A stretch of 64,000 nt of DNA, taken from assembly GCA_911728435.2 (NCBI GenBank), contig OU452209.1:10460869-10524868 (forward strand). Direction: 5' to 3'. This document shows, in pieces, positions 27,231-63,115 of this stretch. The notes under the pieces are model-generated. The model was not told the origin of the DNA. It was given only the letters and a program-made list of their open reading frames with translations, and searched no databases. How positions within the stretch are numbered: position 1 is the first letter of the stretch; each line of letters starts with the position of its first letter. The position numbers and the translations under genes were made by a program. The stretch is from Apoderus coryli. Taxonomy: Eukaryota > Arthropoda > Insecta > Coleoptera > Attelabidae.

Positions 27231-27271
27231 TACTCCTGATGAAGCCGTGAATTACGTCGAAATATTGAGTA
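27231..27271 (+). ncRNA. Hammerhead-ribozyme-like motif HH1
   Basis: Stem I TACTC (27231-27235) pairs perfectly with GAGTA (27267-27271). Core CTGATGA 27236-27242, unpaired A 27243, stem II GCCGT/ACGTC with one mismatch around loop GAATT, GAA 27259-27261, then ATATT. It has the layout of a type-I hammerhead with a minimal stem III; the extra A before stem II is non-canonical. Confidence 0.55.
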
Positions 27272-28307
27272 AATAAAAATAGAAAAAAGAGCTATTTTTT
27301 ATTCACAGACCGCTTACTTGATAATTCCTTATAATAGAATTTATATTAAATTATACACAATGATAATAAATAATAATTACTATGAATATACAAATTAATA
27401 CAAATATACCACTACCATACAGACAAGGTGTTTCAAAAGAAATGCAAAAAATCATTAAGGGGTGATTCCTTGTTGAAAATAACGGATAGTTTGTCTTATA
27501 AAAAATCAGGTCAGAGCTTCACCCCTATGGAGTTACGGGACCGCAAATATGAAGGAAAATTTCAGGATATTTTTTTTTTAATTAAAGAAAAATAAGAAAA
27601 TGCTACAACTTTGAGGACGTATTACTGTAATTGAAATATTTTTTATTTTTAAAAAATAATGAGACGGTGAAAAAGATTTGTTTTCACGTAACTTTCAAAA
27701 AAATTGGGCTACAGCTCAGGAAAAATTGGTTGAAAATTGACCATAAATTTGCAAAATTATTTTCAATGTTTGTTTTTTTTTTGGTATGGCGCCAAACAAA
27801 CGAAAATCATAATATCAGGTGTATTGCCCGCATGCGCATAATATACAGGTTTTAATTGGCTCGGCACGTTGGCTTTTTAATGTATGCTCAAAAACAGTCC
27901 GAGATCAGACCTGTTCTGTAACAAACCAAACCCTCTAAAAACCTCCACCACTGGTGGCCAGCTAGTGCAATGCCCGACTAGTGCTGCCACCACACAAAAG
28001 CATCACTTGTTTTTGCAAGACGACGCCAAAAATAAAAAAAGATGCCGACGCGATACAGACACATAATAATATTTTCGTTGTTACTTATTTTTTATTCTGA
28101 TTAAAGTTATTTTTCTTTCTTTTACATTTTAAAGAAGTATATTCTTTCGGTGTAATAATAATTACTAACCCAACTACCCCTCACAGTTCAAGAAAACTCG
28201 AACATGTAAATTTGAACTGCGCACAGTTCCTGACAGTTCTAGAACAGTTCTTGTAAGAACCCGAATAAAGCTATTTGTCTAATTCCAAAGGTTAATACTA
28301 CCTATTA
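27272..28307. other. AT-rich intergenic DNA with MITE-like scraps
   Basis: AAGGTGTTTCAAAAGAAATG near 27426 resembles the terminus of a mariner-like MITE. Short open frames at 27631-27855 and 27884-28066 match nothing recognised. Confidence 0.35.
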
Positions 28308-28425
28308 TATACAGGGTGTCTCGCGGTGGATGGCGTATTAGATGTTTATGGAGAACTAGCAAACAACAGATTATTTAAAAGGATCAAGATTGGAATCACG
28401 AAAAAGTCGTGGAATTGATTTTTTA
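28308..28425 (+). mobile_element. IS630/mariner-type terminus fragment
   Basis: TACAGGGTGTCTCGCGGTGG starts like the GGGTGTC termini at 12297 and 58061, but no matching right end is present. Confidence 0.4.
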
Positions 28426-28429
28426 TTTT

Positions 28430-28588
28430 ATTTATTCTTTGCTCCTCAGAATGATAACAATATACAATATGACATGTCACATTATGGGATAGTCAATAAT
28501 ATTACATACAACACAAAAACAATAATATTCATACATAACCCGCTATAATTCGGGACTTAAAACTATTCATTAGTACAATTTAAAAACT
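28430..28588 (-). repeat. 3' tail of a non-LTR element, minus strand
   Basis: Read on the minus strand it ends GAGGAGCAAAGAATAAATAA, a short-repeat tail typical of CR1-like elements. It lies in line with the minus-strand pol at 31136-32422, separated from it by the AT-rich element 28589-31135, so the two may be parts of one interrupted element. Confidence 0.45.
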
Positions 28589-32422: not shown

Positions 32423-34124
32423 AGGTCTGTAATTATTTATATCCCTCCCACACTGATTACTTTAATAATAAAATAATAAAATTATATTCGCACCAAAATC
32501 GCACCATTTATCTATTACAGGTTAAATCTATATATTTCAACTTTCAACTGTCATGTCAAAACAATACATATTAGGGATGGGTATTATGAAGTTATTATAA
32601 TAATAGTGATGATCTAACAGGTATAATCATTAAACTGTTTTTGTTGAAATTTTTTATCCAAATATGTATTTCTGACAGGTCGCAAAGATAAAGTAACTGC
32701 AAGCCTCTCCTCAATTGATATACATACTCTATAGTCTACGTTCTGTATTTCGCGACCCACTAAATTCAAAATAAATTCGAACGATTCTGCAACGTTCGCA
32801 AATGCACAGAGCGGCGCGGCTCGTTCCTGCGCGGTCGGTCTGGATGCACCTTAAGGAATTTTAAATTTCTCACAAATAGGTGGGTATAGGTACCTATATT
32901 TTAAATAAAGAAGTAGGTACCTAGGTAATGTAAAAAATTAAAAAACGAGAAATGCTTATTTATTTAATGATGGTCAATAAATTACTTTGTTAATGTAACT
33001 AGGTAGTGAATTTGATTTGTAAATTATCATTTAACTGGTGGTGAATTGAATTCGCAATTAATCAACAATTTCAGGAAATAAATAATGTGCAATACTTATA
33101 AAATACCTACATACATAGTAAGGAGACAAGGTGAGCATGTTTGAGAAAAATAATAACGCGGAAGACAAACACATGTTTGTATCACAGCTATATGTGTGTA
33201 TATTTGATAGGTATAGATGTATTTATATACACTGTGTCCCACACAATCGCATCGCATCAACGACAGATCCAGCGCGGCTGTTCGAATGGGGCCCTAGCAG
33301 AAAAAAAAACGATGTATTTTTATTTTTTAAACATATAAGTAGTTAAATGTTTATTATTTATTTCCAAATTATTTATAATTGACATTGGCAAAAAAAATAA
33401 CGTGCTCTAAACCGGGTACCTCACTAAGGCTATCGACAGGTTGTAACTCCGATTTAATTGGTCGTGCAGCTTTCGGGAAAATTTCAATTTGTCAAAATAA
33501 TTAATTTTTCTAAAGTATTTTTCAACCACCATCAATCATTTAAATTTTCCAAACAATCACTCCGTCTGTACGATATTACCAATTGACATACTTCTGAATT
33601 TTAAGATGCCAAACATTGAATGACTATGACAATAATAGCACAACAATTCTATGATTATTCTGTTATTTATTTTGCGTTTAAATAACAAATAATTGGACCC
33701 AATTCCAACAACAAATTATAAGGTGTACCATTAATTTTTTTTCCTTGCTTTACATATAACTACTTCAAAACTTAATATAATTACAAAAAAAAAATCAACT
33801 TCAATGATCTAATTATTATTTTAAAAATTGTTTACATTAATTTTTATTAATTTTATATTTACATATACACTCTGTCCAAGATAAGAATGGGATAGCATTG
33901 GAAACTGTAGGAGTTAAAAATTAGAGAAAAGTTGTACAATTTAAACACCTTTTAAATGGTGTTTTCAAAAAAAAAATGCGATTTTAGTTTTTATTTATTT
34001 CTGACATTATTTTTACAGATTGTTACGAATGTCATCACTTTCAACGTTAGATTTAGGTTAAAATTATTATTTTCATATATTTCATATCATTAGCTTATAT
34101 CAATACTTGTATTTTTTTTAAAGG
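32423..34124. other. Unassigned intergenic DNA
   Basis: AT-rich. Open frames at 33131-33346 (two overlapping, including IQRGCSNGALAEKK) look like a TE UTR scrap; otherwise nothing is seen. A TACACTCTGTCCAAG phrase near 33868 resembles a MITE terminus. Confidence 0.35.
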
Positions 34125-34230
34125 AGTAGTCCATTCTGAAGTGGAGTGAATGTATTGTAATAGGAAACAAAACGTCAAACTCCACGAAATCAATTTAATA
34201 CACTACACTTAATGTGTTAGGTCGATTAAA

Positions 34231-34276
34231 CTACCAAACATGTTTCGAAGCTCACTAGCTTCATCATCAGTGGCAA
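34231..34276 (-). ncRNA. Hammerhead-ribozyme-like motif HH2
   Basis: Minus strand: stem I TTGCCA/TGGTAG (two G-U pairs), CTGATGA, T, stem II GAAGC/GCTTC with loop TAGTGA, GAA, ACATGT, T. It is the mirror copy of HH3 in the opposite arm of the palindrome. Confidence 0.6.
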
Positions 34277-34489
34277 AATTTGTAGAGAAATTGTATTTTT
34301 GAAAGTATTACATCATTAGGAGTATTTTAAGAGTAATGTGTTGAAGTCTGAAAAAAGACACTGTTTTATAATTAATTACAATAATACAATTATATTATAA
34401 AAAAGTGTCTTTTTTCAGACTTCAACACATTACTCTTAAAATACTCCTAATGATGTAATACTTTCAAAAATACAATTTCTCTACAAATT

Positions 34490-34535
34490 TTGCCACTGAT
34501 GATGAAGCTAGTGAGCTTCGAAACATGTTTGGTAG
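34490..34535 (+). ncRNA. Hammerhead-ribozyme-like motif HH3
   Basis: Stem I TTGCCA (34490-34495) with TGGTAG (34530-34535), core CTGATGA 34496-34502, unpaired T, stem II GAAGC/GCTTC, GAA 34520-34522, ACATGT and a T at the expected cleavage position. Confidence 0.6.
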
Positions 34536-34852
34536 TTTAATCGACCTAACACATTAAGTGTAGTGTATTAAATTGATTTCGTGGAGTTTGACGTTTTATT
34601 TCCTATTACTTGTATTTTTTCTCTACTACCTGTGTCATTTATAAGTTAAACTTATAGGTACCTACCTACTATGTTTCTTTTTATTTGAAGTTGAAACTAT
34701 GATTCATGTATATCTATTTTAACTAAAATAATAATTCCGTATCGAGCAGGTAGACAGACACACGCGAATCGTTAGGAAAGCATTAATTTTGTAATAAAAC
34801 AAAGCATTATTAACTATCACTTAGTGCATTGAGTTTTGCCAGCTATATTCTT

Positions 34853-35070
34853 TTGTTTTGTCCTTGACACTGTTTTGTTGGTAATTGTTTTAGTTTTAAC
34901 ATCCTCATTTAATTTGCTTAGATAAGGTTTGTGACTGATGATGAAAGCATCGGCTTTCGAAAGATGTATCACTTAGGGTGATTTTTAGAGAATAAATTTG
35001 TGTAGGTGACGGCTTGTTTGCTTTGTTTTATTACATTGCACTCCACTGAGAGAATGGACTACTTCTTCAA
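34853..35070 (+). mobile_element. Hammerhead-bearing repeat unit (family shared with 62.7 kb)
   Basis: Contains GACACTGTTTTGTTGGTAAT, GTTTTAGTTTTAACATC, the HH4 motif, and ends TGCACTCCACTGAGAGAATG then GACTACTTCTTCAAG. The same components occur, inverted or rearranged, at 62672-63115, so this is one member of a short non-coding repeat family. Confidence 0.75.
34931..34972 (+). ncRNA. Hammerhead-ribozyme-like motif HH4
   Basis: Stem I GTGA/TCAC, CTGATGA 34935-34941, T, perfect 6-bp stem II GAAAGC/GCTTTC with loop ATCG, GAA 34959-34961, AGATGT, A, then the 3' strand of stem I. Confidence 0.6.
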
Positions 35071-35642
35071 GTTAAACATTAATTTTGTAATTTGTACTAT
35101 AGAAATAAGTGTTGAAAATAAATTTGGGTTTGATTATTATTGGGATTTAGTCGCCTTATTTAATACCAACCTAAATAAGATATAAAAAAATTAAAAGCAA
35201 TTTCTCATTGTTATTTTGTTGTATTCACCTATACCGTTTACAAAATTTTACTACGACGTTTCGTTTTTTAATTTAACCAAATTTGGTACAAACATACTAT
35301 TGGATATGACTAGGAACTGATTTTGGGACTCATAGGGCGTTGTTAAGGGGTATAAAAAGGATCAAAACTGGAAAAAAATCATATTTACCAAAAATGACGT
35401 GATTTTGACCTTAAAAGACTTCGATGTATAATTTATGTATACAGGGCGTCCGAATTGATTTGTAAAAGGAACCAAAAGCTAAATAAATGTAGGTATATTA
35501 AATTAAACGAAAAATGACATTAAATTCCTGTATATCTGACTATTTATATAAGAGCATGTGTTTCAGTTAGAATTTCGTTATATAAAGTGTGTCTTTGTGT
35601 GATAATTTTTTTGTACTTGGACATTGTTTTAAATAGAATTTA

Positions 35643-36771: not shown

Positions 36772-36779
36772 CTCCCCTA

Positions 36780-37380: not shown

Positions 37381-37399
37381 GAAAACTTAGCTAATTTAT

Positions 37400-39782: not shown

Positions 39783-40043
39783 CTAACCATTTCTTAAAGC
39801 TACACTAGATAACTCATTACACTCAATCCACTTTTTTAGTTCCTCAGGCATTTCAGGTTTGAAGCATTTGTTGTGTCCACTTTCTGGATCTTGACTTGAT
39901 TTAGTTAAAAGTTCTTTTATTACATTCTCAGCGTTACAATTCACTAAACGTGTTTTACACAGAACTATCGCATTCACGAATTTATCTTTTGGTGTGATGA
40001 ACCGGTGTTCCATGAAGATGTTCTGCTCGTCCCAGTACACTAT
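39783..40043 (-). CDS. THEM6: THEM6-like coding exon 3 (stop)
   Basis: Acceptor TTTATTGCAG before 40043, phase 0; 261 nt ending TAG at 39785-39783. It encodes IVYWDEQNIFMEHRFITPKD to SSVALRNG. Confidence 0.9.
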   Translation of the reverse strand: MVYWDEQNIFMEHRFITPKDKFVNAIVLCKTRLVNCNAENVIKELLTKSSQDPESGHNKCFKPEMPEELKKWIECNELSSVALRNG

Positions 40044-49000: not shown

Positions 49001-52000
49001 AACAATCAGGGAGGGCTACAAAATGTTGTCCCAATAAGCGGTACACTTGCTCTAAACATTTTTTTCGCTTCCCCACAGATCCTGTTAGGTGAGTAATAAG
49101 TAAAAATAAAGATGATCGATAGATAATTTTACGTTTATAACAACTATTTGTATAACCGTAAAATTTATATTACGAAATGGCAGTATCTAATATGTTTTTA
49201 AACTAAATGAAAGTAAAACATAAACACAAGTTGTCTCGTGGCGAGATAGCATGATAACGTAATCAGCTAGGAGTTATATTATTGACAATATATATATGGC
49301 CCTTGTTTGACTAAAATTGATGAGAACAGGATTCAGTTGATGCAGAATTCAGGCACACGGCTTGTCTGTGAAATTCGTAGGGGTGAAAGAGGCTAAGCAA
49401 TAAGATTAAGGAAATCGGCTGGTTAAGAATGAAACAACGTCGGATTTTCATTCACTAATTTTGATTAATAAAAATCATCAGATGGAAATAGGCGGAATAC
49501 TTATATGAAAGATTCAAGTTCCGGGGATCGGAGTATGATGTAAATATTCCTCATAAAACTGTCATTACGCCACCGCTAGACTCAACATCAATCTTTGAGC
49601 GGTCATTTTCCTATACGGTTTCAAATTATTACAACGCTCTAGAATAGAATATAAAAAGTTCACAGGGGTTTTCGTCGAAGAGCGCTGGCTGACACGTAAT
49701 AGAACAAATTAATTTGTAAACATAAGCTACCTACTTAATTTGGCCAACGATGTAAAACTATTTTGAGATAGGTTTAACTTTAACTGCTTCAACTTTTATA
49801 AAAATGTCTTTTTTACTAATAAAAGTCTGTATTATTATTGTGTTTATTATTATTATTATTATTATTATTAAAAATCACCCAATTATGTCACCATTTAACT
49901 GATACCACCACTCAAGGCTGTTTTCAATCACTATGACACACCACAAATATTTCTGAAATTGACAGCGATATTATTATGTACTTAAATATTTTTTCAAAAA
50001 CGAAAATACAGTACTGTGGTTAGAAACCGAAAACTATAATTATTCTTAGTCAGAACCTGACTTGTAACCCAAAATGGCGGCGTCATACGTCACAGTTTAT
50101 TTCAAAATGCCAACGTGGAGACGGAGTGCTGTACTTATTAATGCTGTGATATTACTTTCAAAATAAGGTCTTACAGGTGTTTGCAAACTACTGTAGTATA
50201 ATCTCTTAGACAAGGAAATTCCTTGTCTAAGTGTAATCTACTAATAAAAAATAGGCACAAATGAATTTTCCCAAATGGGAGACTGTATATTATCTAATAT
50301 TGTCAAGGAAAATCAAATCCCCTTTCAAATCGTATGTCTTATTCCTATCCCTGAATGATAGGATTTTCCAAATAAAAGCAAATTTCTAGAAAAATGGATT
50401 ATTTCGGTATATTTTAATTAAGTAGCATGAAACGTCATTAAACGTCAGGAAAGATTAAAATCGTCCATAACTGATAAAAGGTTTGTCGTTTATGAACGAA
50501 AGTCTCGTGAAAATAATTAAAATGGAAGAAAATAATTACACCAGAAATCAAACACGACTGCTCCACGAAATATTTTCTTCAATTTATGTCATCAGAATAG
50601 TGTCAATTAGCCAGAGATGTTTCGGAATGTACATATTCCATCATCAGTGGCTTTACAATATATATTTTGAATGATAAACATATATATCATCTGGATCACC
50701 GAATACTTGTTCAAAAAGCTCGATCAATTCGGATTTGATGATGGTTTGAAGTCGATAATTACTTCATATCTTCAGAACAGACTCCAATATGTATATTATA
50801 ATGGCTATACGTCAAAGAGGTATTGGGCTTCCTCAGGCGTTCCGCAGGGATCCAATTTGGGTCCACTCCTTTTGTCTATTTTTATAAACGATCTAAATGA
50901 TTGTCTGTGGGTAAAGCGGCTTTTTTTGCCGGCGATTTTAAGTTGTTCGCCCCTATTACTTCTCACGTGGACTGTCTTCGGTTGCACGACGATTTGAGGG
51001 CTGTGGAACATTGGTGCAACGTTAATAAATTATCGCTCAACGAGAATAAATGCAAATGTACATTCACTAGAAGGAATAATATTATAAATTTTCTCTACAC
51101 GGTTGGTGGGACCGCACTGGCTAGGTGTCTGATTGTTGCTGACCTGGGCAACTGTGGCTGCCAGGACTGGTAAAGCTATGAAATCCTACGGTTTTATTGT
51201 GGGAAGCTGTAGAAGTTTTCATAGTATTGATGCGTTGAAAGTTTTGTATAACTCTTATGTGCGTTCGAAGCTAGAATATTGCTCCTTGATTTGGTATCCG
51301 ATCTATCAGATTCATGTGCAGAATGTTGAGAGTGTCCAAAGGAATTTTTTGAAATACCTTTCATTTAAGGCAGACGGTATGTATCCTGGATTGAATATTC
51401 GTTGTTGCTGAACAAGTTCGAATTCAAGAGTTTGGAGTTTAGAAGAATATTTTTTTCTCTAAAATTTTTATATGATCTTTTACATAATAGAATCGACTGT
51501 TCTGAAGGCCTGGCGCAAATAAATTTTTTGTACGACCGACCTTTTTTGATTGTTTACCGTGTCTGTCTTTATGACAGTAAGTGACATTTACTGGCTGACA
51601 ACCCAAACACGACGGTAAGTAATTCACTTACCGTTCTCTGAACGGTAAGTGAATTCACGACGGTATATCATTGCGCATTTATGCTGACGTCATTATTTTG
51701 ATTTTTAAATTGTATATTAAACGGCATTAGGTATGAACTTTTATAAGCATTTTCATACCGTTCTCTGGAATTATAGCAGCTATTCCAACATTCCATGCTT
51801 CATCAAGAGATTCACATTCAAAGTCACTCATTTTCAATAATAATATTTATTTAAATAAGTTTTGACAAATACATGACATAAAAAATACGATAACAATCAT
51901 AACAATAACAATTAGTTCCATGACAACGGTCAACTGCAACTTTGTAGAGGGTATTAGCTAACCTGAATTTGTATTTAATTGAAAATATTAATTATTAAAA

Positions 52001-55000
52001 ATAATAAAATTGCAATTTCAGCCATTTCGATCGTACAAAAAATAGTATAAGCATCTCAAACAGTAAGTAGTTTACCGATCTCCTCCAATTTTGGCGACTT
52101 CGCTACGCTCAGTCGCCAAACATTGTCGTCGGTCGGTAAACTACACTTACTGTTCTCAATACTTAATATACTATAAACGTGCCAAGTCTGGGCGCCTGCA
52201 ATCCTTTAACGTTCTACTGTCAGCGGCCTTGCACTAACTTATAAAATCGCCCGTATATGTCATGTGTAATAATTTTAATTTAATTTATGCTGACTGTGAC
52301 ATTTTTAATTGTTCAAAGGAAGCACTTAGGAGGGCTGCTCTGACTGTGCTTCGTAGTTTCTCTTTTTCCTTGTTAATTGTTTAATTAGTGTAGATCAATA
52401 ATGTTTTATTTTTAATTGAATACTTATTGTGTTCAATATGTACTTATAGTATTTTGTTTTTGATTTTTTTTGTGAAATTACCTATTGTATGATAATTTTG
52501 CTCTGTTAAGGGAGAAATCTGTTGAGCAATAAAAGCTATTATTATAAGAGATTCAAACATGTAGGTATATGTAAGACGTGTCAACAACTGGTATGGCTGT
52601 TAAATACATATTATTACCATACGTGTCTAACAAATATTTTAGTTTATGGGCTGAGAATAATTATTTGTTGTCTTTTTCATAATATTAAGTGAGATACATG
52701 TTCTACTTTTGTGTGTTTATATTATAGTAGATTTATAGCTGTAGGAAAGAAGTGTATGTTTTTAAAAGAAAGGGATAATACTTATTCTTGGATAGGCATA
52801 TAGAACGGATGCCATCATTGATATTATATTCTGATTTTATTAAATGATTTTTGTTTATTGGAAAATATAAAGTTATTATTGAAAATTTCTTGTTTTCTTA
52901 CATATACAGGGTGAGTTATTAGTGCGTCGAAGTTCGATATTACCTCAAAGATCAAGAATTTCACGCAAAAATAAGCAGCCAGGGTACCTCATCTCATCAG
53001 GGTGAACCAAACTTACGTTTTTTTAAATGGAAAGCCCTATTTATTATTCCACAATTTCATTGGTATAGACTTGACATTAACATACTAAAATTTTAGAAAA
53101 TTATACAGAGTGGTTCAAAAGTTACCACTAGTATTATATGCAAAAAATGACGAATTCTAAGGCCTCTGTGCTGGAACTGAAATAATTTAAACTCTGTTTC
53201 TTACGGGCATCACTTTTTGATAATTATCAACTTTTAGAAAAAGATAATTCTTAGTATATAGTGCAAAACCTGTGAGGGTGAGTTCAAACACAAATTTGCG
53301 TTTTACTCGAATTTTCTAAATGAGACACCTTGTATATAATATCAAAAACTGAAAGGAAAATTGATAAGCTTTCATTCTTATATAGCCTTTCTTATACCTA
53401 AAGCTATTAGTTTTTAAGATAGTTTCATTTATGAAATGTGGCTTCATCTCCAAACAACACAAAGTAAAAAAAATCTACCTGATTGTGAATTTGTTGTTGC
53501 GCCCATTGGCAGAACATAATTCGCCGGAGATAGTCATCGTCAGTTTGTTTTTATGTAGAATTCTTTTGACTGAATTTTGGCTTACCGATAGTTCCCGAGC
53601 AATTTCACGCGTGCTGATATGTGGATTTTCTATCACTTTTAACATTACATTCAATTAATTTTCATCATTCAAAACAGTTTTGGTCCTAGTTTGTTTTGGA
53701 TATTTTACTGATTCCGTGTTTCCAAAACGATTCATTAAGTATCCTTTCCATTGTTATATTTTCTGGTTGCCTTCGAGCAGGATATCTTACTTGGTAAATT
53801 CTTTGCGCAAGTAAAACATTTTGCATACATTCTCCCAATATCCAAATCATATCTATTACCTCATTGTTGGGAAAATTCATTTCAACCAAAATTTAATTAA
53901 GTAATTATTAATAAACTAATTGTTATATGTACTTAATAGAATACACTTTTGTAATAAATAGCTAATGATTAAATGTTACTGTCATTCGATCAAATCCTTG
54001 TTGATTTAGTTGATAAATATTCCAATTATATACCGGTTTTGATTACGATTATAAGTAAATAACTATTAAAAAATAGGTTGAATTTGAAAAATATTATTTT
54101 GGTGATCTTGTGTAATGTTTTTCAATAACAAATATCAAAAATGAAATTAGGTATATGAAAAATGATCACGTAAAGTCCAAATTTTATAATAGTTTTTTGT
54201 TTAAATGAAAATATCTTAAAAACTAAGAGCTTTAGATATAAGAAAGGCTATATAAGAATAAAAGCCTATCAATTTTCCTTTCAGTTTTTGATATTATTTA
54301 CAGCGTGTCTCATTTGGAAAATTCTATAATACTACTGGTAACTTTTGAACCACTGTGTATAAGTTTATAAAATTTTAGTATGAAAATGTTAAGTCTAAAC
54401 CAATGAAATTGTGGAATAATAAATAGGGCTTTCCAGTTAAAAAAACATAAGTTTGGTTCACCCTGATGAGATGAGCCACCCTGTACAAATAACAATAATT
54501 TTAAAATACGTATTTTATGACTGCCTACACACTGGCTGCTTAGTTTTGCGTGAAATTTTTGGTCTTTGAGGTAATATCGAACTTCGACGCACTAATAACT
54601 CACCCTGTATGTATATGATTTACAAATTTCTTAACTCATTTTGCAAGGTAAAATTTTACAATATTTATCTTATGTTTATTTTAAGTAGAATTTAATTGTG
54701 CTTTTGTACTTTCCATAGCTCTGAAGAAGAAATTAAATAAATTTCGAAAGCTGAAAGCTTGGCAGTTAAATAAGAGTTTTCTTTACACACAACCAAGGCA
54801 GACTCCCCAAAAACATTTTTCAAGATTTAATTATAACACTTGCCGAAAGATTGTTCAGCAAGGTCGCCCCACTGGACTATTTTCTTTGGGGCGAAATGGA
54901 ACGTTTGATCTATGCGACTCCTGTGCCGACAATGGAGGACCTAGTTCCTAGAGTTGTGGTGGCAGCAGAATTTATCGTGAACGATGCAGGCGTGTTTGCT

Positions 55001-58000
55001 CGGGTGCGCGAATCCTGGCTCGACAGGTGCAGAAAATGCATCGAAATGCATAATGAACACTTTGAGCATTTGCTCCACTATTAATAATAAATTATTTGTA
55101 AAAAAGCCTCCTTGTTTTTCTTTCTAACAATAATGAGCCTTTTAATAAAGTTTTTAATAAAAAATTTTTCTCGAAAACGGAGAGAGATACGAAAAAATAT
55201 CAAGTAACAAAAAAGTTGTACTTTTAACTGAGCTTTCTAAAAAAAATATAACATTTTCAAAAAGTCAGTAGCGTACATCTTTTTGTCATTTTTATTCGTG
55301 ACACTGTCCCCCGGGGCGCCACTAGAGGTCATAATTAACATTTAATTAGTGCTAACTGAGCGTCTTATTAAGCTTACATTACCAGCGAATTTCAAGAAAA
55401 TCTGTTAACGTGTCTTTGAGATATTGATAAAAAAAGGTTTTTTGAAAAAAACTTTGACACCCTGTATTTTGAAAACCATGCACTTCCGGACATCTGTCTC
55501 TTACATTTATGGAAAAAGGAAATCACACAATCAAAACACAAAAAAAAAAGATAATAAAAATAAAATAAATAAAAAAAAAGCAGACGTGTTTGATTTCTAG
55601 ATAAATCCCGCTCCTCTTAGATATGGATTACTTCAATAAATGTAGTTTTGATGAAATTATTTATTGTAAATTGTAGAAAAGACATTCAAAACGTTTCATG
55701 AAATGTGGCCTGATTTACAAAGAACGATGCAGTTTGCACAAATACAAAATCATTTCATAAATTATTAATATAGATTTAGCGAAGGCTATGACCTCAGATG
55801 AAGACAACCTAACGTTTTTAGCTACATTAACTTTGGTTGTTAATTAGATACGTTTCATTGACCTTTCTGCATGATTTTTTTATGATTTTGTCACAATATC
55901 CATGAATATTAAACAAGTTCACTAAAACTTCATTTAAATAATTATTTTCAAGACACTTTCGATAATATTAATAAACAACAAACATTTGAATAATAGTCAG
56001 GCAATAAATGTCTATTATTATAATTTTATTGTTTCGTGACGTTTAGTGACATTTCAGGATTACCTAATTAAAACAAATAGAAATAATTCAGTTTTTATAG
56101 AAACTTTCTTTTATTTCGAAAGCCTTACATTTAGGGATAGGAACATGGCATAATTTTCTTTCAGAATATTAGACAACATACAGGGTGTTCCATTTGATAA
56201 AATTGTCTTAAGCCTATTTTTGTTAGTAGATCACACTACAGTAGTTTACGACCAGCCGGTAACCTTATGAGTCAATCTGTGAAGGTAATTGATTCTTCTA
56301 AGATAAGGCTGAAGGACTTCGGTCTATGGCCTTTTGGAGTTTTGTACCAATAAATTACGTTTTATTATTATTTTTTCAAAGATATTTCTCAACTACCTTC
56401 AAAATTACACGGGTCTGTTTAATCAGGTGACGAAATGGTGAATGTTTTCCGGATATCTATTTTAGGTGAAACTAAATTATTTATTCCAAAAACATCAAAC
56501 AAAAATAAATTAAAGAAATAATCCATTTGATGCAGTGGAGTGTAGGTAATCTAATTAGTATGAAACAATTTAGTCGTCTCCACTAATAATTTTAAAAATC
56601 TTTATTCAAAGGGACATGTTTCGGAGTCCCACCTCCATCATCAGCCTTAAAATATCGCAACTATGGTGGAGTTAAATCCGCCCTATTAAGAGCTCTGTCT
56701 ATATGCGGATTTAACTCCACCCAAAATAGATATCCGGAAAACATTCACAATTTTGTCAGCTGGGACTCCGAAACATGTCCCTTTGAATAAAGATTTTTAA
56801 AATTATTAGTAGAGACGACGAAATTGTTTCATTGTAATTAAACAAAAATAAGATCACATTTAAAATTCATAGCTTAAAGGAGAAACTGACTTTTTAAAAA
56901 GAGTAACTTATTGTGAGTTTATTTTGACTTGGTTACGGTTGCTTCTTTTTAGACAATATTATTTGGTCAAACAAAGCGACATTTACGAAAAATAGGCTAT
57001 TTAATACCAAAAATTCAAAATATTGAATTGACTTAAATTCAGACGCAATGAGTGTGAGACGTATTCGAAAATTTAATCAATCAATCAGAAAATCGACACT
57101 TGCAGAATGCGAATGAGAAAATGCATAGACGTTCTAGGACAACAGTTTGAACAATTACTAAAATATTTTTTCCTCGTATTGTGTTGCTCGATTTTTTTTT
57201 GTTCGACTGAGAAATAAATACCCGATGAAATAAAATGTTCGATATCCGAAAATATTTTCAAAAGAAAGCTTTAAAATTATTTGATTGACAAGTGATATTA
57301 TAGTTTGTCAGAATTTTTCAATTCTTAAGTGTAAGACCCTATATATTTTTTCCTAATATTATAACCGAAATATTTTTTTTTCCTTCATCAACTTCGTGGG
57401 AACATACAAAGATTCGATAGCGCGTTATGTTTATATTAAATAAAAATAATGCAGCCTCAAGAGGTTTGTAAAGTAAACAAATAAATGGTTCTAGACGTCT
57501 GAGAATCACGTCTTTGTCTATGGGATTCATTTTCAATTTTATTTCCAAAGAGTTTACAACTATTCGAATATTAAAAACACTATTATCATGATCAACGTAA
57601 CTATCACTAAGTACCCCGATAAATAAAAGCTACATTGCTCACCTTCGTGGTAATTATGTACTTTTGAAACAGTTTGATATATTTTCTATATCTGATAGTA
57701 GTTGCTCCTAATACTATGGAACCACCTTGACTCTTAATGCACCGATACAATCCAGTTCTCATGTTGAAGTCCATTTTAGCGAAGTCCAACTCTCGAATAA
57801 ACCTGGCATTGTTCATATGTGTCCATAAGTTATCAATGTCACTTGGAAGGCAAATACCTATAAAAAATAGAGTAGAGTTTACATTACTTGTGACTCACAC
57901 CTCAAATAAATGTGAATTGACACTTCCTTTTGTGAATATGTTTACACTGGAGAAGATTTGCTTCTTCAGGCGTTGTTTGTATTAAGGGGGCAATGAGATT

Positions 58001-61000
58001 GTAGAAAAACATATTATAAATGCAAAAAAACAAATAAAGAGACCAAAGGTGTTTACCATACAGGGTATCTTACGGTGACCGTCTATTAGAAAACCTTGGG
58101 ACGAAAAGCGATTTAAATTCTGAAAATTTGCATGGTATGATTTTTGATTACGCATTTTTCAGCAGCATTTATCAGACTATTTTTTTAACAGTACACGTAA
58201 AAACACTATACGAGTATATATAAAATATAACATATACATATAATAATACAGAGAACATCTTTCTGAACACATAAAAATACCGCATCAAAAACATGAATAT
58301 TTAGTTTTCCTATTTTTTTTTCGTGTCGTAATAAGCCCATCGACCATCTTTAGTAATTGTTTCTTGTTGTTGCGTTGGAGCATCAACGGCGTCATCATAC
58401 CATGCAAAATTTCAGAATTTAAACCGCTTTACGTCCCGTGATGTTCAAATGGACGGTCACCTTGAGACACCCTGTAGTCTCAATATTTATTCATGAAATA
58501 TTTTTTTTTAATCTAAAATGCCGTGATTGAACAATTTCGCAAATCTATGACGGGTGTTGCGCTGTAAACGTTACTCTTTTGATGGTGATGCTGTCGTAGG
58601 CATAATGCAATTTTAGGCATATAGTCACTTGCCTAGGAATTTACTATGTGCCATGGTATATAGCAAAATATTTAACAACAAGAGTTGCCTATACCTGCAA
58701 CCGTCATTTGAGAAATGACGACTTTACATTCAGGCAGATGTTATTAGACTATACGCAATTTACAATGAGCACCGTTTTGCTATTTGCCTAGGCATTTACC
58801 ATTTGCCCAGCTCCACGTTGATCATTTGAGGAAGCAATGCGTCAGGCGTTTAGCGCGATTTTGAGGTTAACTGTTTATTAGTGTTGGTTTTACCCGTCTG
58901 AAGTCTCGGAGTTTTGGTGTATTTTGAAGCATGTTTTGTGATTTATTAACAATGTCTATACAGTTTCCCAAACTGAATCTGAGAAAAATCCGGCCGTTGG
59001 AGTGTCTGCGCGCAAATGCAAGAAGACTTGCAACATGAATGAATGAATCACTACGACCGACGATGTGATTAAAATAGTAAGGGCGGGACAGGAAAAACAA
59101 TGCCAAAAGTGAACCATGGAAACAACGAATGATATTACATGTAAAAATATGATTTAATAGACAGCAGAGGCACCACAAAAATTATTTTAAAGCAATCAGA
59201 CGATAACATTGTTTACGTGATTCCCATAGAAGAATTTTATCAAAAAATAAATGAAGCACATAAATCCACAGGCCACGGAGAAAGAGATAAAATTTTGCGT
59301 TTCCTGAAGTTACTTTCAAAAACTTGTTAAAAAAATCCTAACAGAGGATAATCCTTGTTGTTTTGTCGATGATAATAATCTTGTTTATTAGTTTGATGTG
59401 CCATATTTATTAAAATCCACTAGAAATAATATATTTTTATACATTTTTCATTTACCGGAAGAAAAAACAAACAAAAAATAAAATTGAAACCATATACCAG
59501 TACGATAAATCAAAAGACTCCTGATGAGTACATTTATCCCAACAGTTTTCAAAAATGCAACTATGCTGCTCAAGTACTTAGTCACAGCACCTCGGTAGCC
59601 TTAAATTCATTCGTAGACTTTAAATTATTACCATCTGATGCAGGGTCCCTCCTATATTTTAAATTCCAGTTGATGTCTTCAAAGGAAATCGAAAACAATT
59701 ATTTTTTTTCAGGGGATGATAACATGACACTTAAACCAAGACTGCAGATAATTTTTTTTTGGGCAAATTCGAAACTGTTCTGGAAATGCCAGGAATCCAA
59801 CACCCATTCCAATTCTGTAGAGCATTTAAAAAATGGTTTCGTTATCATCATGTTCTCATCTTAATAAATCCCGTAATTTTAAACAGTTTTATTACTTTTA
59901 CATTTCGTCGTACGTTTTAGTGTGACCCTCGAATAACAGATTTTGTCGCTTAAATAATTTACTGCTTGCAGCTGAAGTCGGCAAGGCTTTGATCGAACGA
60001 AAATAAAGGGCCGTACTAAAGTGATCCTTCTATGCCGTTATATGTTCGGTGCTATTATGTTCAAGGGCAGAAAAATATATCTCACCATCTCTATACGGCC
60101 CGGAACCAAAGCTATGAACTATATTTATTATTATTTATTTATGTACAACGAGTTAGACCCAGTACTTAGATTCTAAATTCTTTTCAGGTTGGTCTCAGCT
60201 CTTCTAATCTCCCTCTTCAAATTCTTAAAAATATTAATTCAAAAGAAGAATTAGATTAGCGAATTTTTGATTGATCCTCAACAAATTCAAAATTCAGGCG
60301 AATCAGATCAGAATTATTTTGCAGTATTACCTAAATACTGCTGAAGCAGTATCTGATCCTATTATTTTGAATGCAAACGAAAATAAAGGGCCGTCCCAAA
60401 GTGATCCTTCTATGCCGTTATATGTTCGGTGCTATTATGTTCAAGAGCAGAAAATATATCTCACCATCTCTATACGGCCCGGAACCAAAGCTATGAACTA
60501 TATTATTTTTTTCAGTTTATTTATTATTATGTATTTATGTACAACGGGTTAGACCCAGTACTTAGATTCTAAATTCTTTTCAGGTTGGTCTCAGCTCTTC
60601 TAATCTCCCTCTTCAAATTCTTAAAAATATTAATTCAAAAGAAGAATTAGATTAGCGAATTTTTGATTGATCCTCAACAAATTCAAAATTCAGGCGAATC
60701 AGATCAGAATTATTTTGCAGTATTACCTAAATACTGCTGAAGCAGTATCTGATCCTATTATTTTGAATGCAAACGAAAATAAAGGGCCGTCTCAAAGTGA
60801 TCCTTCTATACCGTTATATGTTCGGTGCTATTATGTTCAAGAGCAGAAAAATATATCTCACCATCTCTATACGGCCCGGAACCAAAGCTATGAACTATAT
60901 TATTTTTTTCAGTTTATTTATTATTATGTATTTATATACAACGGGTTAGACCCAGTACTTAGGTTCTAAATTCTTTTCAGGTTGGTCTCAGCTCTTCTAA

Positions 61001-61542
61001 TCTCGCTCTTCAAATTCTCAAAAATATTAATTCAAAAGGAGAATCAGATTATCGAATTTTTGATTGTTCCTCAACAAATTCAAGATTCAGGCGAATCAGA
61101 TCAGAATTATTTTGCAGTATTACCTAAATACTGCTGCCGCAGTATCTGATCCTATTATTTGAGAACACGATAATACTATGCTGTTTGCAAAAAAGAAAGC
61201 ACTGGGGCACACACGTGCGTATGAAATGTGTCCAAGTAACACATTTGTTATGCGGGATACCAGATAGTGATGTTGAGGAAAATGAAGCATTTGGCTCTAA
61301 TTTAATATGTTAATATGAATAAAATAAATCACAAAAAAATTGTTTTACTTAGGTTTAGTTTAAAGAGTTTAAAAAATTTTCTTACCCGTAATTTTAGTTT
61401 CACTCAAAATATGCACAAATTTTTTAAAAAATATTGACCAAATCACACACAACAATGTTCGCAGGAAATAATGCAATTCAAAAACAACATGAATTAATAA
61501 GAAAAAACTAATTCCACCAAGAAGTATTAAACAAATATCCAT
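39783..61542 (-). CDS. THEM6: THEM6-like protein (thioesterase superfamily member 6), 3 exons, complete
   Basis: Three minus-strand exons (61386-61542, 57643-57857, 39783-40043) join exactly in phase to encode 210 residues, the size of vertebrate THEM6. Residues 3-38 are strongly hydrophobic (MDICLILLGGISFFLLIHVV onward), a signal-anchor. Then LPSDIDNLWTHMNNARF, IRELDFAKMDFNMRTGLYRC and SIVLGATTIRYRK form the N-terminal hotdog half with the family hallmark HMNNARY.RE.DFAR. IVYWDEQNIFMEHRF and DKFVNAIVLCKT form the second half, and ELKKWIECNELSS is the terminal W...NE.SS block. THEM6 proteins are membrane-associated hotdog-fold proteins of uncertain substrate, linked to lipid metabolism. Intron 1 is 3.5 kb and intron 2 is 17.6 kb, the latter holding a BEL/Pao element and other TEs. 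Coding sequence is undamaged, so the gene is likely active. Confidence 0.9.
40044..40797. other. THEM6 intron 2, unassigned part
   Basis: A 113-codon minus-strand open frame (40152-40493) has no recognised similarity; nothing else is visible. Confidence 0.35.
40798..41025 (+). pseudogene. Non-LTR RT fragment (SFADDTAVLY)
   Basis: The frame NIISFADDTAVLYSDSNWSI, LKEKVETDFQNIIEYFNSKS, LTINFDKTHFMCFA carries the RT catalytic ADD strand and the following N..KT segment of CR1/Daphne-like elements. Only about 70 residues remain. Confidence 0.75.
41026..41600. other. THEM6 intron 2, unassigned part
   Basis: AT-rich sequence with nothing recognisable; part may belong to the BEL LTR, whose outer limit is unknown. 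Confidence 0.35.
41600..41871 (-). repeat. BEL/Pao 3' LTR (inner boundary at 41871; outer end uncertain)
   Basis: Twenty bases after the polyprotein stop (minus strand) lies the purine tract GGGCGGGGG, then TGTACAGTATGC starting at 41871, as expected for a polypurine tract and LTR start. No second LTR copy was found upstream of the gag remnant, so the outer boundary cannot be fixed by comparison. Confidence 0.5.
41892..46679 (-). pseudogene. BEL/Pao retrotransposon gag-pol polyprotein, nearly intact, one in-frame stop, N-terminally truncated
   Basis: A single minus-strand frame of about 1,595 codons is broken once by TAA (45581-45579) near the protease. Order: gag (QKFHYLNSSLSGTAPQVI, 46610), zinc knuckles (CYNCKKDHRLYGC, CLNCLQQGHTSKDC, 46050-45880), aspartic protease (LLDCGSQSSFITSDL, 45640), RT (SDIKMMYRQV 44680; DMYVDDLLTS 44430), RNase H (GFSDASEASYGACIY 43910; WTDSTIVLGWL 43690), integrase HHCC region (LHAGPQLLLASLR ... 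CVRCARHN 42880) and DDE (GVDYAGPF, FSDNGSNF, FGGIWEAGVKSLKHH), then the BEL tail AHFLIGRPIMHLAE. The YVDD and DDE residues are all present. The first ~150 gag residues and the 5' LTR are missing. It lies in THEM6 intron 2 in the same orientation as the gene. Confidence 0.93.
46680..47602. other. THEM6 intron 2, unassigned part
   Basis: Follows the truncation point of the BEL element; low-complexity A/T sequence, no LTR copy and no gene. TTAATTAATTAATTAATTGA near 47250 is a short simple repeat. Confidence 0.4.
47603..48262. mobile_element. Long-TIR foldback element (TACAGGGTGTTAGTAAATAA termini)
   Basis: The left end TACAGGGTGTTAGTAAATAA with GTGCGACAAACTCC is the reverse complement of the right end GTTTGTCGCACTTATTTACT plus AACACACTGTA. 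Pairing continues for about 300 bp per arm with scattered differences. Apparent open frames in the arms (47556-47789, 47905-48252) are mirror images of each other, not genes. Termini of the ACAGGGTG type are shared with the DUF4817 element family in this window. Confidence 0.8.
48263..48960. other. THEM6 intron 2, unassigned; possible LTR remnant on the right
   Basis: From about 48720 the base composition rises (CGAGCCGTCCTGCGCATATC, GTCGCGCATGCCGCC), then a run AATAAATATTGTGTTTGTAA, resembling the end of a retroelement LTR. Confidence 0.3.
48961..49095 (+). other. Short open segment after an LTR-like leader
   Basis: From ATG near 48987 the plus strand reads MINTMNNQGGLQNVVPISGT then LALNIFFASPQILLGE and a stop; a GTGAGT donor-like site also lies there. 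This could be the start of a Gypsy-type gag or an orphan exon. No continuation was found. Confidence 0.25.
49096..50608. other. THEM6 intron 2, unassigned, with a TTA microsatellite
   Basis: TTATTATTATTATTATTATT extends at about 49843-49870. A short perfect inverted repeat CTTAGACAAGGAAATTCCTTG..TAAG lies near 50206-50231. No gene. Confidence 0.45.
50609..50652 (-). ncRNA. Hammerhead-ribozyme-like motif HH6
   Basis: Minus strand: stem I AGCCA/TGGCT (perfect), CTGATGA, T, stem II GGAAT/ATTCC (perfect) with loop ATGTAC, GAA, ACATCT, C. Both helices differ in sequence from HH3 yet remain paired. Confidence 0.65.
50683..51590 (+). pseudogene. Non-LTR retrotransposon RT fragment (CR1-like)
   Basis: Plus-strand frames read LFKKLDQFGFDDGLKSIITS, YLQNRLQYVYYNGYTSKRYW, SSGVPQGSNLGPLLLSIFIN (RT palm), then AGDFKLFAPI (the ADDFKLF site, with the first D lost to G), NVNKLSLNENKCKCTFTRRN, YNSYVRSKLEYCSLIWYPIY and VESVQRNFLKYLSFK (thumb). 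Several frameshifts and the mutated catalytic strand show it is dead. Its 3' tail is probably at 52220-52551. Confidence 0.8.
51591..52219. repeat. Small inverted repeats downstream of the RT fragment
   Basis: TAAGTGAATTCAC occurs in hairpin form near 51605-51660 (TTCACTTACCGTTCTCTGAA, CGGTAAGTGAATTC). A second hairpin near 52060-52150 pairs AGTAAGTAGTTTACCGATC with GTCGGTAAACTACACTTACT. No gene. Confidence 0.5.
52220..52551 (+). repeat. Likely 3' UTR/tail of a CR1-like element
   Basis: Contains a G+C-richer UTR segment and ends GTTGAGCAATAAAAGCTATT followed by ATTATAA, a short-repeat tail typical of CR1 elements. Confidence 0.5.
52906..54608 (-). mobile_element. 1.7-kb DUF4817-family element with ~450-bp inverted ends
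   Basis: The left terminus ACAGGGTGAGTTATTAGTGC with GTCGAAGTTCGATATTACC is the reverse complement of the right terminus ending at 54608. The arms match over about 450 bp (52906-53420 against 54190-54608), with an inner block (TTGATAAGCTTTCATTCTTATATAGCC) mirrored at 54230-54280. The centre keeps minus-strand transposase N-terminal remnants only. It is therefore a non-autonomous, long-TIR derivative of the IS630-like family. Confidence 0.85.
53430..53885 (-). pseudogene. DUF4817-type transposase N-terminal HTH region
   Basis: The minus strand encodes MNFPNNEVIDMIWILGECMQ, NVLLAQRIYQVRYPARRQPE (first HTH: the YGEC..NA..A..LY..RYP.RR.P signature) and, after a frameshift, KVIENPHISTREIARELSVS and QNSVKRILHKNKL (second HTH: NP..STR.IA..L..S..SV.RIL). 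The catalytic domain is deleted. It lies in the centre of the long-TIR element 52906-54608. Confidence 0.75.
54717..54759 (+). ncRNA. Hammerhead-ribozyme-like motif HH9 (degenerate)
   Basis: Stem I AGCT/AGCT, CTGAAGA 54721-54727, unpaired A, perfect 6-bp stem II GAAATT/AATTTC, GAA 54746-54748, then a 7-nt spacer AGCTGAA before the stem I strand. Spacing is as in HH2-HH8, but the cleavage-site T is lost. Confidence 0.4.
54787..55461 (+). pseudogene. DUF4817-family transposase C-terminal fragment with terminal repeat
   Basis: The plus strand reads LAERLFSKVAPLDYFLWGEM, ERLIYATPVPTMEDLVPRVV, then FARVRESWLDRCRKCIEMHN and EHFEHLL. This is the last catalytic block (PLDYFLWG) and C-terminal tail (YATPV...EDL......RVR.S...RC..C....G.HFEHLL) of the IS630-like family. 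The terminus ACACCCTGTAT at about 55449-55459 fits its right inverted repeat. The upstream part is missing. Confidence 0.8.
55462..56544. other. THEM6 intron 2, unassigned part
   Basis: Starts with A-rich simple sequence (55480-55580). TACAGGGTGTTCCATTTGAT near 56179 looks like another lone MITE terminus. No gene. Confidence 0.4.
56545..56840. mobile_element. Palindromic element carrying hammerhead-like HH7
   Basis: The arm ATGAAACAATTTAGTCGTCT..CACTAATAATTTTAAAAATC, with TTTATTCAAAGGGACATGTTTCGGAGTCCC (56558-56630), is mirrored at about 56762-56834. GCAGTGGAGTG at its left recalls the termini of the 34-kb and 62.7-kb elements. The right arm has lost the CTGATGA part, so only the left arm holds a complete motif. 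Confidence 0.75.
56609..56648 (-). ncRNA. Hammerhead-ribozyme-like motif HH7 (GUC-type site)
   Basis: Minus strand: stem I AAGG/CCTT, CTGATGA, T, stem II GGAG/CTCC with loop GTGGGA, GAA, ACATGT, C. The triplet GTC at the predicted site is the canonical hammerhead cleavage triplet. Confidence 0.65.
56841..57642. other. THEM6 intron 2, right end
   Basis: A minus-strand open frame at 57339-57548 (LRRLEPFICLLYKPLEAALF) is unrecognised and is not a THEM6 exon, because exons 2 and 3 join in phase without it. Confidence 0.4.
57643..57857 (-). CDS. THEM6: THEM6-like coding exon 2
   Basis: Acceptor TTTATAG before 57857, donor AAG|GTGAGC after 57643; 215 nt. It encodes GICLPSDIDNLWTHMNNARF through FQKYIITTK, the most diagnostic part of the family. 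Confidence 0.92.
58061..58473. mobile_element. IS630/mariner-type MITE with GGGT(A/G)TC termini
   Basis: The left end TACAGGGTATCTTACGGTGA with CCGTCTATTAGAAAACC and the right end GGACGGTCACCTTGAGACAC plus CCTGTA are inverted. Subterminal TTTAAATTCTGAAAATTTGC and GCAAAATTTCAGAATTTAAA also pair. Non-coding; same subfamily as the remnant at 12297-12608. In THEM6 intron 1. Confidence 0.8.
58474..59189. other. THEM6 intron 1, unassigned part
   Basis: GCCTAGG..TTTAC and TTGCCTA motifs recur near 58630, 58688 and 58788. A 103-codon minus-strand open frame (58867-59178) is unrecognised. Confidence 0.35.
59190..59330 (+). pseudogene. KRBA2/Ginger-like integrase H2C2 zinc-binding fragment
   Basis: The plus strand reads IILKQSDDNIVYVIPIEEFY, QKINEAHKSTGHGERDKILR, FLK before decaying. 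The AH..TGHGGRD.....L pattern is the zinc-binding start of integrase cores in KRAB-A-domain-2-like/Ginger TE proteins. Only the first half of the finger remains. Confidence 0.45.
59484..59864 (+). other. 126-codon open frame of unknown origin
   Basis: The frame starts MKPYTSTINQKTPDEYIYPN and contains LPSDAGSLLYFKFQL. No motif was recognised. It lies between the integrase-like fragment and the tandem array, in the sense orientation of both, and may be part of the same decayed element or chance. Confidence 0.25.
59995..61160 (+). repeat. Tandem array of about three ~380/396-bp units
   Basis: ACGAAAATAAAGGGCCGT recurs with its aligned T at 60004, 60384 and 60780 (periods 380 and 396). Units share TATGTTCGGTGCTATTATGT, ATACGGCCCGGAACCAAAGC, GGTTGGTCTCAGCTCTTC and AATACTGCTGAAGCAGTA. 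The difference in period comes mainly from a TATTTTTTTCAGTTTA insertion in later units. The last copy is cut near 61150, and the first lacks its front part. Overlapping frames (60271-60552, 60667-60969) repeat the same unrecognised peptide and are unlikely to be genes. In THEM6 intron 1. Confidence 0.85.
61386..61542 (-). CDS. THEM6: THEM6-like coding exon 1
   Basis: ATG at 61542-61540 in the context GGAAAAATGG is the first in-frame ATG of the open frame, favoured over upstream non-ATG codons. It encodes the membrane anchor and ends ETKIT plus one base at donor ACGG|GTAAG (61386/61385). Confidence 0.85.
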
Positions 61543-62084
61543 TTTTCCAATATAATTACTATTCTCCACTAAATCACTTTTGTTAAATCTACACAAGTTT
61601 TTAGTTTATATTTTAATTTTATGTAAACAACATCTAACGAAAACAAGGATATTACACTGAATGTAGCATGTAATAATAATAAAGAAATTGTATATATTTT
61701 AATATTAGGAATGACTATTATGAATCATTGCTTATGTTAGGCTTTTATTGTTTTTGTTTACGCGTAAATTTTGTTAAACAAAGCGTGTTTTATTAATCAG
61801 AATTTCGCTCTTTCTACCTGTATCGATATAACTAACTAATATCACACACAGTAATAATTATTATTGTGGAAAGCTGGTCAGTTATTGCTTTGGATATTAT
61901 GCGACAAACTTGTATACTGTAGCGTAGCGCACTTGCCGTCATGAAATAATTGAAAAGTCAATACATTTTTGCTATAATGTCGCTCAAGGTAGGGCAATGG
62001 TTGGTGTCTAACCTGATGTAATTACATATTAATTATCTTAAAAAAAAACAAAACAAAATTCTACCTAACGAAACTCAGATATAG
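61543..62084. promoter_or_regulatory. Upstream region of the THEM6-like gene
   Basis: By position this holds the promoter and 5' UTR of the THEM6-like gene (minus). No motif can be assigned. Confidence 0.35.
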
Positions 62085-62430
62085 TTTATGCACGATGATG
62101 CTCTAGCGCATTTTAGTCGGGATGCCCGTAATTTTTTAACAGAGACATACGGAAATTGCTAGATTGGACGAGGTGGGCCTCACTTGTAGCCTACACGATC
62201 ACGGGATTTAAACCCACTGGATTTTTTCATGTGGGGCTACCTGACGTCCTTAGTTTACGCTACTCCTGTGGAAAATGTGGAGGACCTCATTATTGCTGAG
62301 TTTAGTTCCATTAGAAACGACATTGGTATTTTTTATAGGGTTCGTCAGTCAAAGAGAAGAAGATTAGATTCTTGTATCCGAGCAAAAGGCGGTCACTTCA
62401 ACAGTTTTTGTAATTTTTTGTATTAGATAT
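62085..62430 (+). pseudogene. DUF4817-family transposase C-terminal fragment
   Basis: Reads MHDDALAHFSRDARNFLTET (second catalytic block, QHDGAPAHF equivalent), then IGRGGPHL, RSRDLNPLDFFMWGYLTSLV (third block), YATPVENVEDLIIAEFSSIR and FYRVRQSKRRRLDSCIRAKG to a stop at 62426. Frameshifts lie between the second and third blocks. It is clearly the same family as 5285-6190 and 54787-55461. Confidence 0.85.
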
Positions 62431-62671
62431 AAATGTTAAGTTTATTTATTTATATCGGTAACCCAAATGTTAATGTTATTTTGAATTATTTGCAAAAAAC
62501 ATTTTATGTTGAAAAATGTTTTAAATTTTTATCTCGGAAACGAAGCATCATATGAAAATAATATGAGATAAAAAAGTTGTCTCTTTAATTGTTTTATCTC
62601 AAGACAATATCGAAATTAGATTACAATCAGTGGCGTACATTTTTTTGCCAATAATTTATATTAAACTTGAA

Positions 62672-63115
62672 GAAGTAGTCCATTCTCTCAGTGGAGTGCA
62701 ATGTATTAAATCAAAGCAAACAAAAGTCACCTCCACAAATTTATTCATCCAAAAATCACTCTATGTGAAACATATTTCGAAAACAGTAGCTTTCATCATC
62801 AGTCACAAACTTACCAAAAAACAGTCTTAACCATCTCGGAGCAAACATTCAATTTTTTTTCTTGGTGCGGAGGAACACCCAATTGCTATTATAGGGGTGA
62901 AATTTTAGTTTTTTAAACTTGTATATATTAAATTATATTGTTTTGTCCTTTTTTAATATAGACAAGTTAAAAAAAAATAAAAAATACTAACTAAAATTTC
63001 ACCCCTATATTAGCAATTGGGTGTTCCTTCGCACGAAGTAAAAAATTGAATGTTTGCTCCGCCATGTTTCAGTTTAAGACACTGTTTTTTGGTAAGTGTT
63101 TTAGTTTTAACATCT
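62672..63115. mobile_element. Palindromic hammerhead-bearing element
   Basis: GAAGTAGTCCATTCTCTCAG with TGGAGTGCAATGTA (left) matches the end of the unit at 34853-35070. The HH8 motif follows. From 62820 to 63075 the sequence folds back: GGAGCAAACATTCAATTTTT and CACCCAATTGCTATTATAGG are mirrored by CCTATATTAGCAATTGGGTG and AATTGAATGTTTGCTCC. The right arm stops at TTTTAACATC before an HH motif. Confidence 0.8.
62764..62807 (-). ncRNA. Hammerhead-ribozyme-like motif HH8
   Basis: Minus strand: stem I TGTGA/TCACA (perfect), CTGATGA, T, stem II GAAAG/TTTTC (one G-T), GAA, ATATGT, T. Stem I again differs in sequence from the other copies while staying paired. Confidence 0.6.

Follow-up and report, generated by a model that had tools for sequence, protein, structure and literature searches.

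What kind of element scatters hammerhead-like motifs through a beetle genome? The question is raised by a 64,000-nucleotide (nt) stretch of Apoderus coryli DNA (assembly GCA_911728435.2, contig OU452209.1, positions 10,460,869 to 10,524,868, forward strand; hereafter the window), in which a first-pass annotation had reported nine hammerhead ribozyme-like motifs with covarying stems (HH1 to HH9) over 36 kb. Our analysis indicates, with a probability of about 90%, that these hammerheads belong to the pseudo-long terminal repeats (pseudo-LTRs) of Penelope-like elements, and that most copies are 5'-truncated inserts. The basis for this reading is the architecture of the motifs, the covariation of their stems, a shared downstream unit that includes the start of an open reading frame (ORF), direct repeats that flank inserts, and the GIY-YIG-like endonuclease frames to which copies are linked. 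Ribozyme-bearing Penelope ends are a kind of structure that has already been published, and the present case is a further member.

Six of the nine motifs have type I hammerhead architecture

All nine sequences quoted in the first-pass annotation are present at the positions and on the strands given there. Six are well formed: HH2 (34231-34276, minus strand), HH3 (34490-34535, plus), HH4 (34931-34972, plus), HH6 (50609-50652, minus), HH7 (56609-56648, minus) and HH8 (62764-62807, minus). Each combines CTGATGA, a single extra T, stem II and GAA with a minimal, ACATGT-like stem III, and the ends of stem I are open; with a CUGANGA and GAA core and both stems I and II in place, all six are, by sequence, well-formed type I hammerheads. 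The single extra T before stem II stays within the one or two inserted bases that the hammerhead core may contain (PMC10085705). The hammerhead rule predicts cleavage at 34237/34236 in HH2, 34529/34530 in HH3, 34968/34969 in HH4, 50614/50613 in HH6, 56613/56612 in HH7 and 62769/62768 in HH8.

The anatomy proposed for all nine does not extend unchanged to the other three. HH5 (39598-39640, plus), whose weak stem I had been recognized, is decayed, with one mismatch in that stem and another in stem II, and it lacks the downstream box described below. HH9 (54717-54759, plus) is doubtful, having CTGAAGA in the core, and HH1 (27231-27271, plus) is unsupported: it carries A where the well-formed motifs have the extra T, and its stem II contains a mismatch. 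A strict descriptor called for CTGANGA, no more than one extra base, ≥3 bp in stem II, GAA, a spacer and ≥4 bp in stem I; from the window it recovered seven of the nine, namely the six well-formed motifs and HH9. HH2 and HH3, which are identical in sequence, are indeed mirror copies: they form an inverted pair with 216-nt arms that are 99% complementary and 21 nt apart.

Pairing is conserved in copies outside the window

The 428-Mb assembly consists of 129 contigs, from which we fetched 22 loci by region (L005-L017 and L021-L029; positions are given as locus:position). Sixteen were placed blind, at 10 kb each and 160 kb in total (L007-L009, L011-L014, L017 and L022-L029). The blind counts leave out L005 and L006, which flank the window, L010, L015 and L016, which surround matches to the Rfam hammerhead model RF00163 and are overlapped by L002, L004 and L003, respectively, and L021, which spans 2 kb.

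A covariance model, R1, was built from five window copies (HH2, HH4, HH6, HH7 and HH8) and run against the window plus 17 loci. Within the window it also found HH3, HH5 (E 0.0012) and HH9 (E 0.016). HH1 was absent from the R1 matches listed at E ≤ 5 and was rejected as a family member; HH9 has none of the common downstream features and was rejected as a pseudo-LTR copy. Held-out copies matched at L009:2649-2695 (the best, E 1.8e-9), L012:8242-8286 (E 1.4e-7), L009:1811-1856 (E 8e-6) and L012:8614-8658 (E 6e-4). The last of these, on the plus strand, is missing ~20 nt that begin at the cut site and extend into the spacer; the other arm of a head-to-head pair retains them. At E ≤ 10, Rfam reported no hammerhead within the window, nor did it report one in six loci at E ≤ 1. 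RF00163 does detect another, canonical hammerhead family elsewhere in the same genome, in a search that scored 73 of 52198 candidates, so that its count is a lower bound. Since Rfam 15 missed the present form in the window, routine annotation would overlook such hammerheads. Other Rfam matches, among them WsnRNA46 and MIR530, were discarded, since they coincide with long palindromes and score below their gathering cut-offs.

The proposed covariation of stems I and II was borne out both in the window and in held-out copies. In an alignment of eight copies (six from the window, HH5 included, and two from elsewhere), 95.7% of 69 cells hold standard pairs and seven of nine pairs have changed on both sides; with a slid partner, 27-46% of cells pair. 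Among nine held-out copies, fitted to R1 and including both arms of one L012 palindrome, 87.5% of 80 cells are paired, as against 34-42% with a slid partner, and eight of nine pairs have changed on both sides. Held-out pairing is higher in stem II (95.5% of cells) than in stem I (only 77.8%), and the number of further pair types is unremarkable, being reached by 140 of 500 shuffles. The core letters CTGATGA and GAA and the A15.1/U16.1 pair are kept while stem letters vary. Compensatory change agrees with the RNA-level selection invoked in the first-pass annotation; however, because the window copies are mostly truncated inserts, covariation reflects selection on their source elements and not on these copies.

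The ribozymes share a downstream unit that appears to end just inside an ORF

Homology between copies extends beyond the ribozyme through a spacer, GTGGAG, ~45 nt and CTCCACT to ATG-GAY-TAY-TTY, the start of a frame reading M-D-Y-F-F-K. The frame-start codons differ synonymously between copies (GAC/GAT, TAC/TAT, TTC/TTT), and similarity is lost beyond this MDYFFK-like start. A GTGGAG-like box is found in 12 of 16 copies, and an ATG-GAY-TAY start lies 80-103 nt past the ribozyme in eight of the 16. The fetched sequence has 22 ATGGAYTAY sites; by a loose pattern, 13 have an upstream box, and 12 of these continue MDYFFK-like, the sole exception being L015:6924. This common unit looks, from its sequence, like a shared insertion end lying just inside an ORF.

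Individual copies in the window illustrate the layout. The HH2 copy carries the frame start ATGGACTACTCCTTTAA (34118-34134, minus), which ends at a direct repeat, and the HH4 copy reads MDYFFK at 35054-35076 (plus). HH8 and its downstream pseudo-LTR (62653-62810, minus) are 88% identical to those of HH4 over 159 nt, and a palindrome search placed a palindrome immediately 5' of HH8 (62809-63097). At HH6 the GTGGAG box lies 42 nt downstream, and an ATGGAC at 140 nt reads differently from MDYFFK. A remnant without a ribozyme (55591-55640, plus) retains the CTCC box and an MDYFNK frame start. Pseudo-LTRs that include the first ORF codons and stand in direct or inverted orientation, as in Penelope elements, are therefore present.

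Direct repeats delimit three inserts in the window. The head-to-head pseudo-LTRs of HH2 (minus) and HH3 (plus) form a 489-bp insert (34118-34606) flanked by the 14-nt repeat TACTTGTATTTTTT at 34104-34117 and 34607-34620, a repeat matched by six of 4000 random placements of the same search size. The single pseudo-LTR of HH4, with its frame start, forms a 281-bp insert (34796-35076, plus) between copies of the 15-nt CATTAATTTTGTAAT at 34781-34795 and 35077-35091 (47 of 4000 placements), and the pseudo-LTR of HH7, with a partial palindrome, forms a 331-bp insert (56509-56839, minus) between copies of the 12-nt AAACAAAAATAA at 56497-56508 and 56840-56851 (34 of 4000). Short target duplications of the kind associated with Penelope elements are thus found at HH2/HH3, HH4 and HH7; no direct repeat was accepted around HH8 or HH6. 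In L012 a further head-to-head pair has TAAATAATTTTA at each end. Two earlier direct-repeat candidates, at L009:2483/2768 and in L005, were discarded.

Ribozyme copies are linked to GIY-YIG-like endonuclease frames

In L009, an insert at 2544-3587 (minus), bounded by TTATATCTGATTTT and TTATATCTGCTTTT, begins with a piece of pseudo-LTR in inverted orientation, followed by a frame with AYVGQTGRSFLTRIKEH (stop at 3148), a ribozyme-bearing pseudo-LTR and a ATGGATTACTTC start; L022 has two inserts of similar construction. For its boundaries we preferred the repeat pair 2530/3588, because it sits where the inverted piece ends. A homologous frame in L022 (39% over 100 aa, E 1e-23), which carries an early stop, stands upstream of a ribozyme at 3887-3929 on the same strand. 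GIY-YIG-like motifs occur beside ribozymes with the extra T in both loci (AYVGQTGRSFLTRIKEH in L009, KYIGQSGRKISIRVKEH in L022), and another frame, L022:8270-8893, is related to the L009 frame and to the other L022 frame. PHROGs and NCBIfam returned nothing for the L009 frame, a viral collection held no relative of it, a solved-structure search gave one unrelated match (E 0.54), and a structure prediction with a pLDDT of 35 was set aside.

Further frames related to the L022:8270-8893 endonuclease were seen at L029:9447-9999, L023:7291-7692 and L007:2-395, which suggests that the genome contains many elements of this sort. None of three inverted pseudo-LTR pieces stops at the cut site: those in L009 (~3500-3587) and L022 (8190-8266) break off within ribozyme stem II, and the one at window position 62809 stops at the 5' edge of the HH8 ribozyme. 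Just upstream of the L009 insert, stretches on the minus strand at 3611-5272 read as what we take to be a cyclin-like protein, and the insert may lie within a host gene or next to one.

Weighing the alternatives

Several observations weigh against assigning the hammerheads to Penelope-like elements. The GTGGAG box is missing from four of 16 copies; repeats of the grade seen in L012 and L009 arise in 115 of 1500 and 20 of 150 random placements, respectively; and the ribozyme at L022:3887 has GAC for GAA in its core. The L022:8270-8893 frame matches the Pfam GIY-YIG family PF01541 at E 0.0026, with 18.5 bits against a curated cut-off of 22.6 bits, and two frames beside ribozymes with the extra T match no GIY-YIG model in Pfam. 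Family models confirmed no reverse transcriptase domain: the stretch L022:2457-2906, which we take to resemble the end of a Penelope reverse transcriptase, gave no RVT_1 match. No intact element was seen in the window and the sampled loci. Finally, for all eight sequences examined, a canonical control among them, folding energy favors some other structure over both the monomer and the dimer hammerhead.

This last result bears on a different explanation, that the motif is a plain hairpin of stem I, AUG/CAU and stem II serving transcription, protein binding or the priming of reverse transcription, with a non-catalytic core. A long hairpin is indeed the lowest-energy fold in 8/8 sequences, and ribozyme mutants of a published element still insert (PMC11167929). 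However, a canonical control hammerhead misfolds in the same way, so the energy test does not discriminate, and a non-catalytic core would leave unexplained why CTGATGA, GAA and A15.1/U16.1 are kept despite changes in the stems; we therefore consider a plain hairpin highly improbable. Chance matches in AT-rich DNA may account for HH1 and HH9, and an exact-letter scan of viral contigs did give three loci, two of them in long frames of unrelated genes with broken pairs. For the window family as a whole, we give chance next to no credence: 60 dinucleotide shuffles yielded a mean of 0.017 descriptor matches per window, none with CTGATGA, and the blind 160 kb held eight real matches, all hammerhead families together, as against two in 20 shuffles. 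Together with the held-out R1 matches, these controls exclude chance for the six good copies.

Also very unlikely is an identity as non-autonomous retrozymes, in which small ribozyme units stand in tandem and spread via circular RNAs that arise by double self-cleavage. Retrozymes are known in insects (PMC7229834), and the small inserts of 281-489 nt, with type I hammerheads and, in the window, no ORF, would suit them. By contrast, direct tandem repeats of ~170-400 nt with a hammerhead in each were not found for this form in the window; the only same-strand pair seen, in L009, is ~840 nt apart with its second member outside the insert. The copies, moreover, stop where an ORF begins and have endonuclease frames linked to them, and a different, retrozyme-like hammerhead family is present in the genome. 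A foldback DNA transposon as the source of the palindromes was dropped given the same frame start and endonuclease linkage. The reading as type I hammerheads with minimal stem III, which the first-pass annotation noted as known from Penelope-like elements and retrozymes, is right for the six good motifs, and the frame start, pseudo-LTR layout, direct repeats and GIY-YIG-like linkage tie them to Penelope-like elements.

A possible mechanism and its precedents

Most of the copies seen amount to a single pseudo-LTR or to two in inverted, head-to-head arrangement, and they stop a few codons inside the next frame. If the hammerheads are parts of Penelope-like pseudo-LTRs, the transcript of an intact element would run from pseudo-LTR through ORF to pseudo-LTR, with two ribozymes in all. 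Through the palindromic strand of stem III (ACAUGU), these could pair as a double hammerhead, which would cut on the 5' side of stem I's 3' strand and free RNA of unit length from read-through or tandem transcripts. This strand of stem III is wholly self-complementary in five of seven sequences tested, making a double hammerhead possible; cleavage, the dimer mechanism and a role in processing are inferred. The five bounded inserts, three with good direct repeats and two with weak ones, all span the predicted cut site, so that their templates were uncut there; copies beginning at the cut site would be missed, since copies were found through their intact ribozymes. It is conceivable, though we think it rather unlikely, that in this lineage the extra U and the palindromic stem III confine activity to transcripts on which two pseudo-LTRs pair, a lone ribozyme being inactive. 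Cleavage would then compete with insertion and limit copying instead of making the 5' end.

Minimal type I hammerheads are known from Penelope-like elements; they may act as dimers in cleavage and are said to lack loop-loop tertiary contacts, and their role there has been called a mystery (PMC7761336); stem I is short and open in the window copies. In one system, where ribozyme mutants still insert, as noted above, cleavage required protein (PMC11167929). The published examples (Cervera and de la Pena 2014; Lunse, Weinberg and Breaker 2017) share with ours the topology, minimal stem III, pseudo-LTR position and possible dimers (PMC7761336, PMC6155905, PMC11167929). Compared by description, and with no claim of novelty in print, ours may differ by the extra T between CTGATGA and stem II. 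In our copies the frame start follows the ribozyme at a distance of 80-103 nt, whereas in the Anolis element PAc it lies at stem II (PMC11167929). Penelope families of Adineta vaga, such as Pen2a, likewise have the first ORF codons in the pseudo-LTR, head-to-head inverted pseudo-LTRs, junction palindromes and short target duplications (PMC3846280), a match in layout that counts in favor of the Penelope-like assignment. The word "ribozyme" is absent from the text of that paper, and the inserts here, unlike those, are mostly reduced to pseudo-LTRs. Animal non-LTR retrozymes also have type I hammerheads in short genomic repeats, but as tandem units with circular RNAs (PMC7229834), whereas the form described here is dispersed and linked to endonuclease frames.

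One extra core base has a parallel outside these elements. The hammerhead of Chrysanthemum chlorotic mottle viroid, on which De la Pena and Flores are said to have reported in 2001, reportedly has one between A9 and stem II, although it is a viroid ribozyme.

Other hammerheads and neighboring features

A second variant (TGTC-CTGAGGA-T-GACTT-AATAA-AAGTC-GAA-ACGTC-GACA), with CTGAGGA followed by T and with ACGT for ACATGT, lies 488 nt past L022:8270-8893, a frame that is preceded by an inverted copy of the repeat following it. Copies are at L022:9384-9422 (plus), L023:9092-9130 (plus), L016:4507-4545 (minus) and L016 ~4977 (plus), the last two being an inverted pair. Its position behind a GIY-YIG-type frame suggests that two Penelope-like groups each bear an extra-T hammerhead. 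The canonical type I family scored by RF00163 lacks the extra T, has the stem III strand ACGGCCGT, and occurs in L001-L004 and at L008:8762-8805 (minus), 9238-9281 (minus) and 9533-9576 (plus). It stands in direct (476 nt) and inverted repeats and forms a separate, retrozyme-like family.

The window also contains a BEL/Pao element (41892-46679, minus) with a 1224-aa open frame carrying Peptidase_A17, RVT_1 and integrase domains, along with other reverse transcriptase pieces. A three-unit tandem repeat with a spacing of 396-397 nt occupies 60122-61214, and the descriptor found no hammerhead inside it. Matches to 4HBT_2 at 39786-40106 (minus; just under the cut-off) and 57610-57894 (minus) cover different parts of the profile.

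Abundance and significance

At E ≤ 0.05, R1 gave nine matches in six of the 16 blind samples, or ~1 per 18 kb; extrapolated genome-wide, this is on the order of 20,000 copies, a very rough figure with wide error. Points of possible interest are the extra T, the second variant behind another Penelope-type endonuclease, and the separate retrozyme-like family without the extra T. The genome offers many natural variants that have kept their pairing, as well as inserts whose ends can be defined, so that counting could settle how insertion ends relate to the cut site and to the integrity of the ribozyme.

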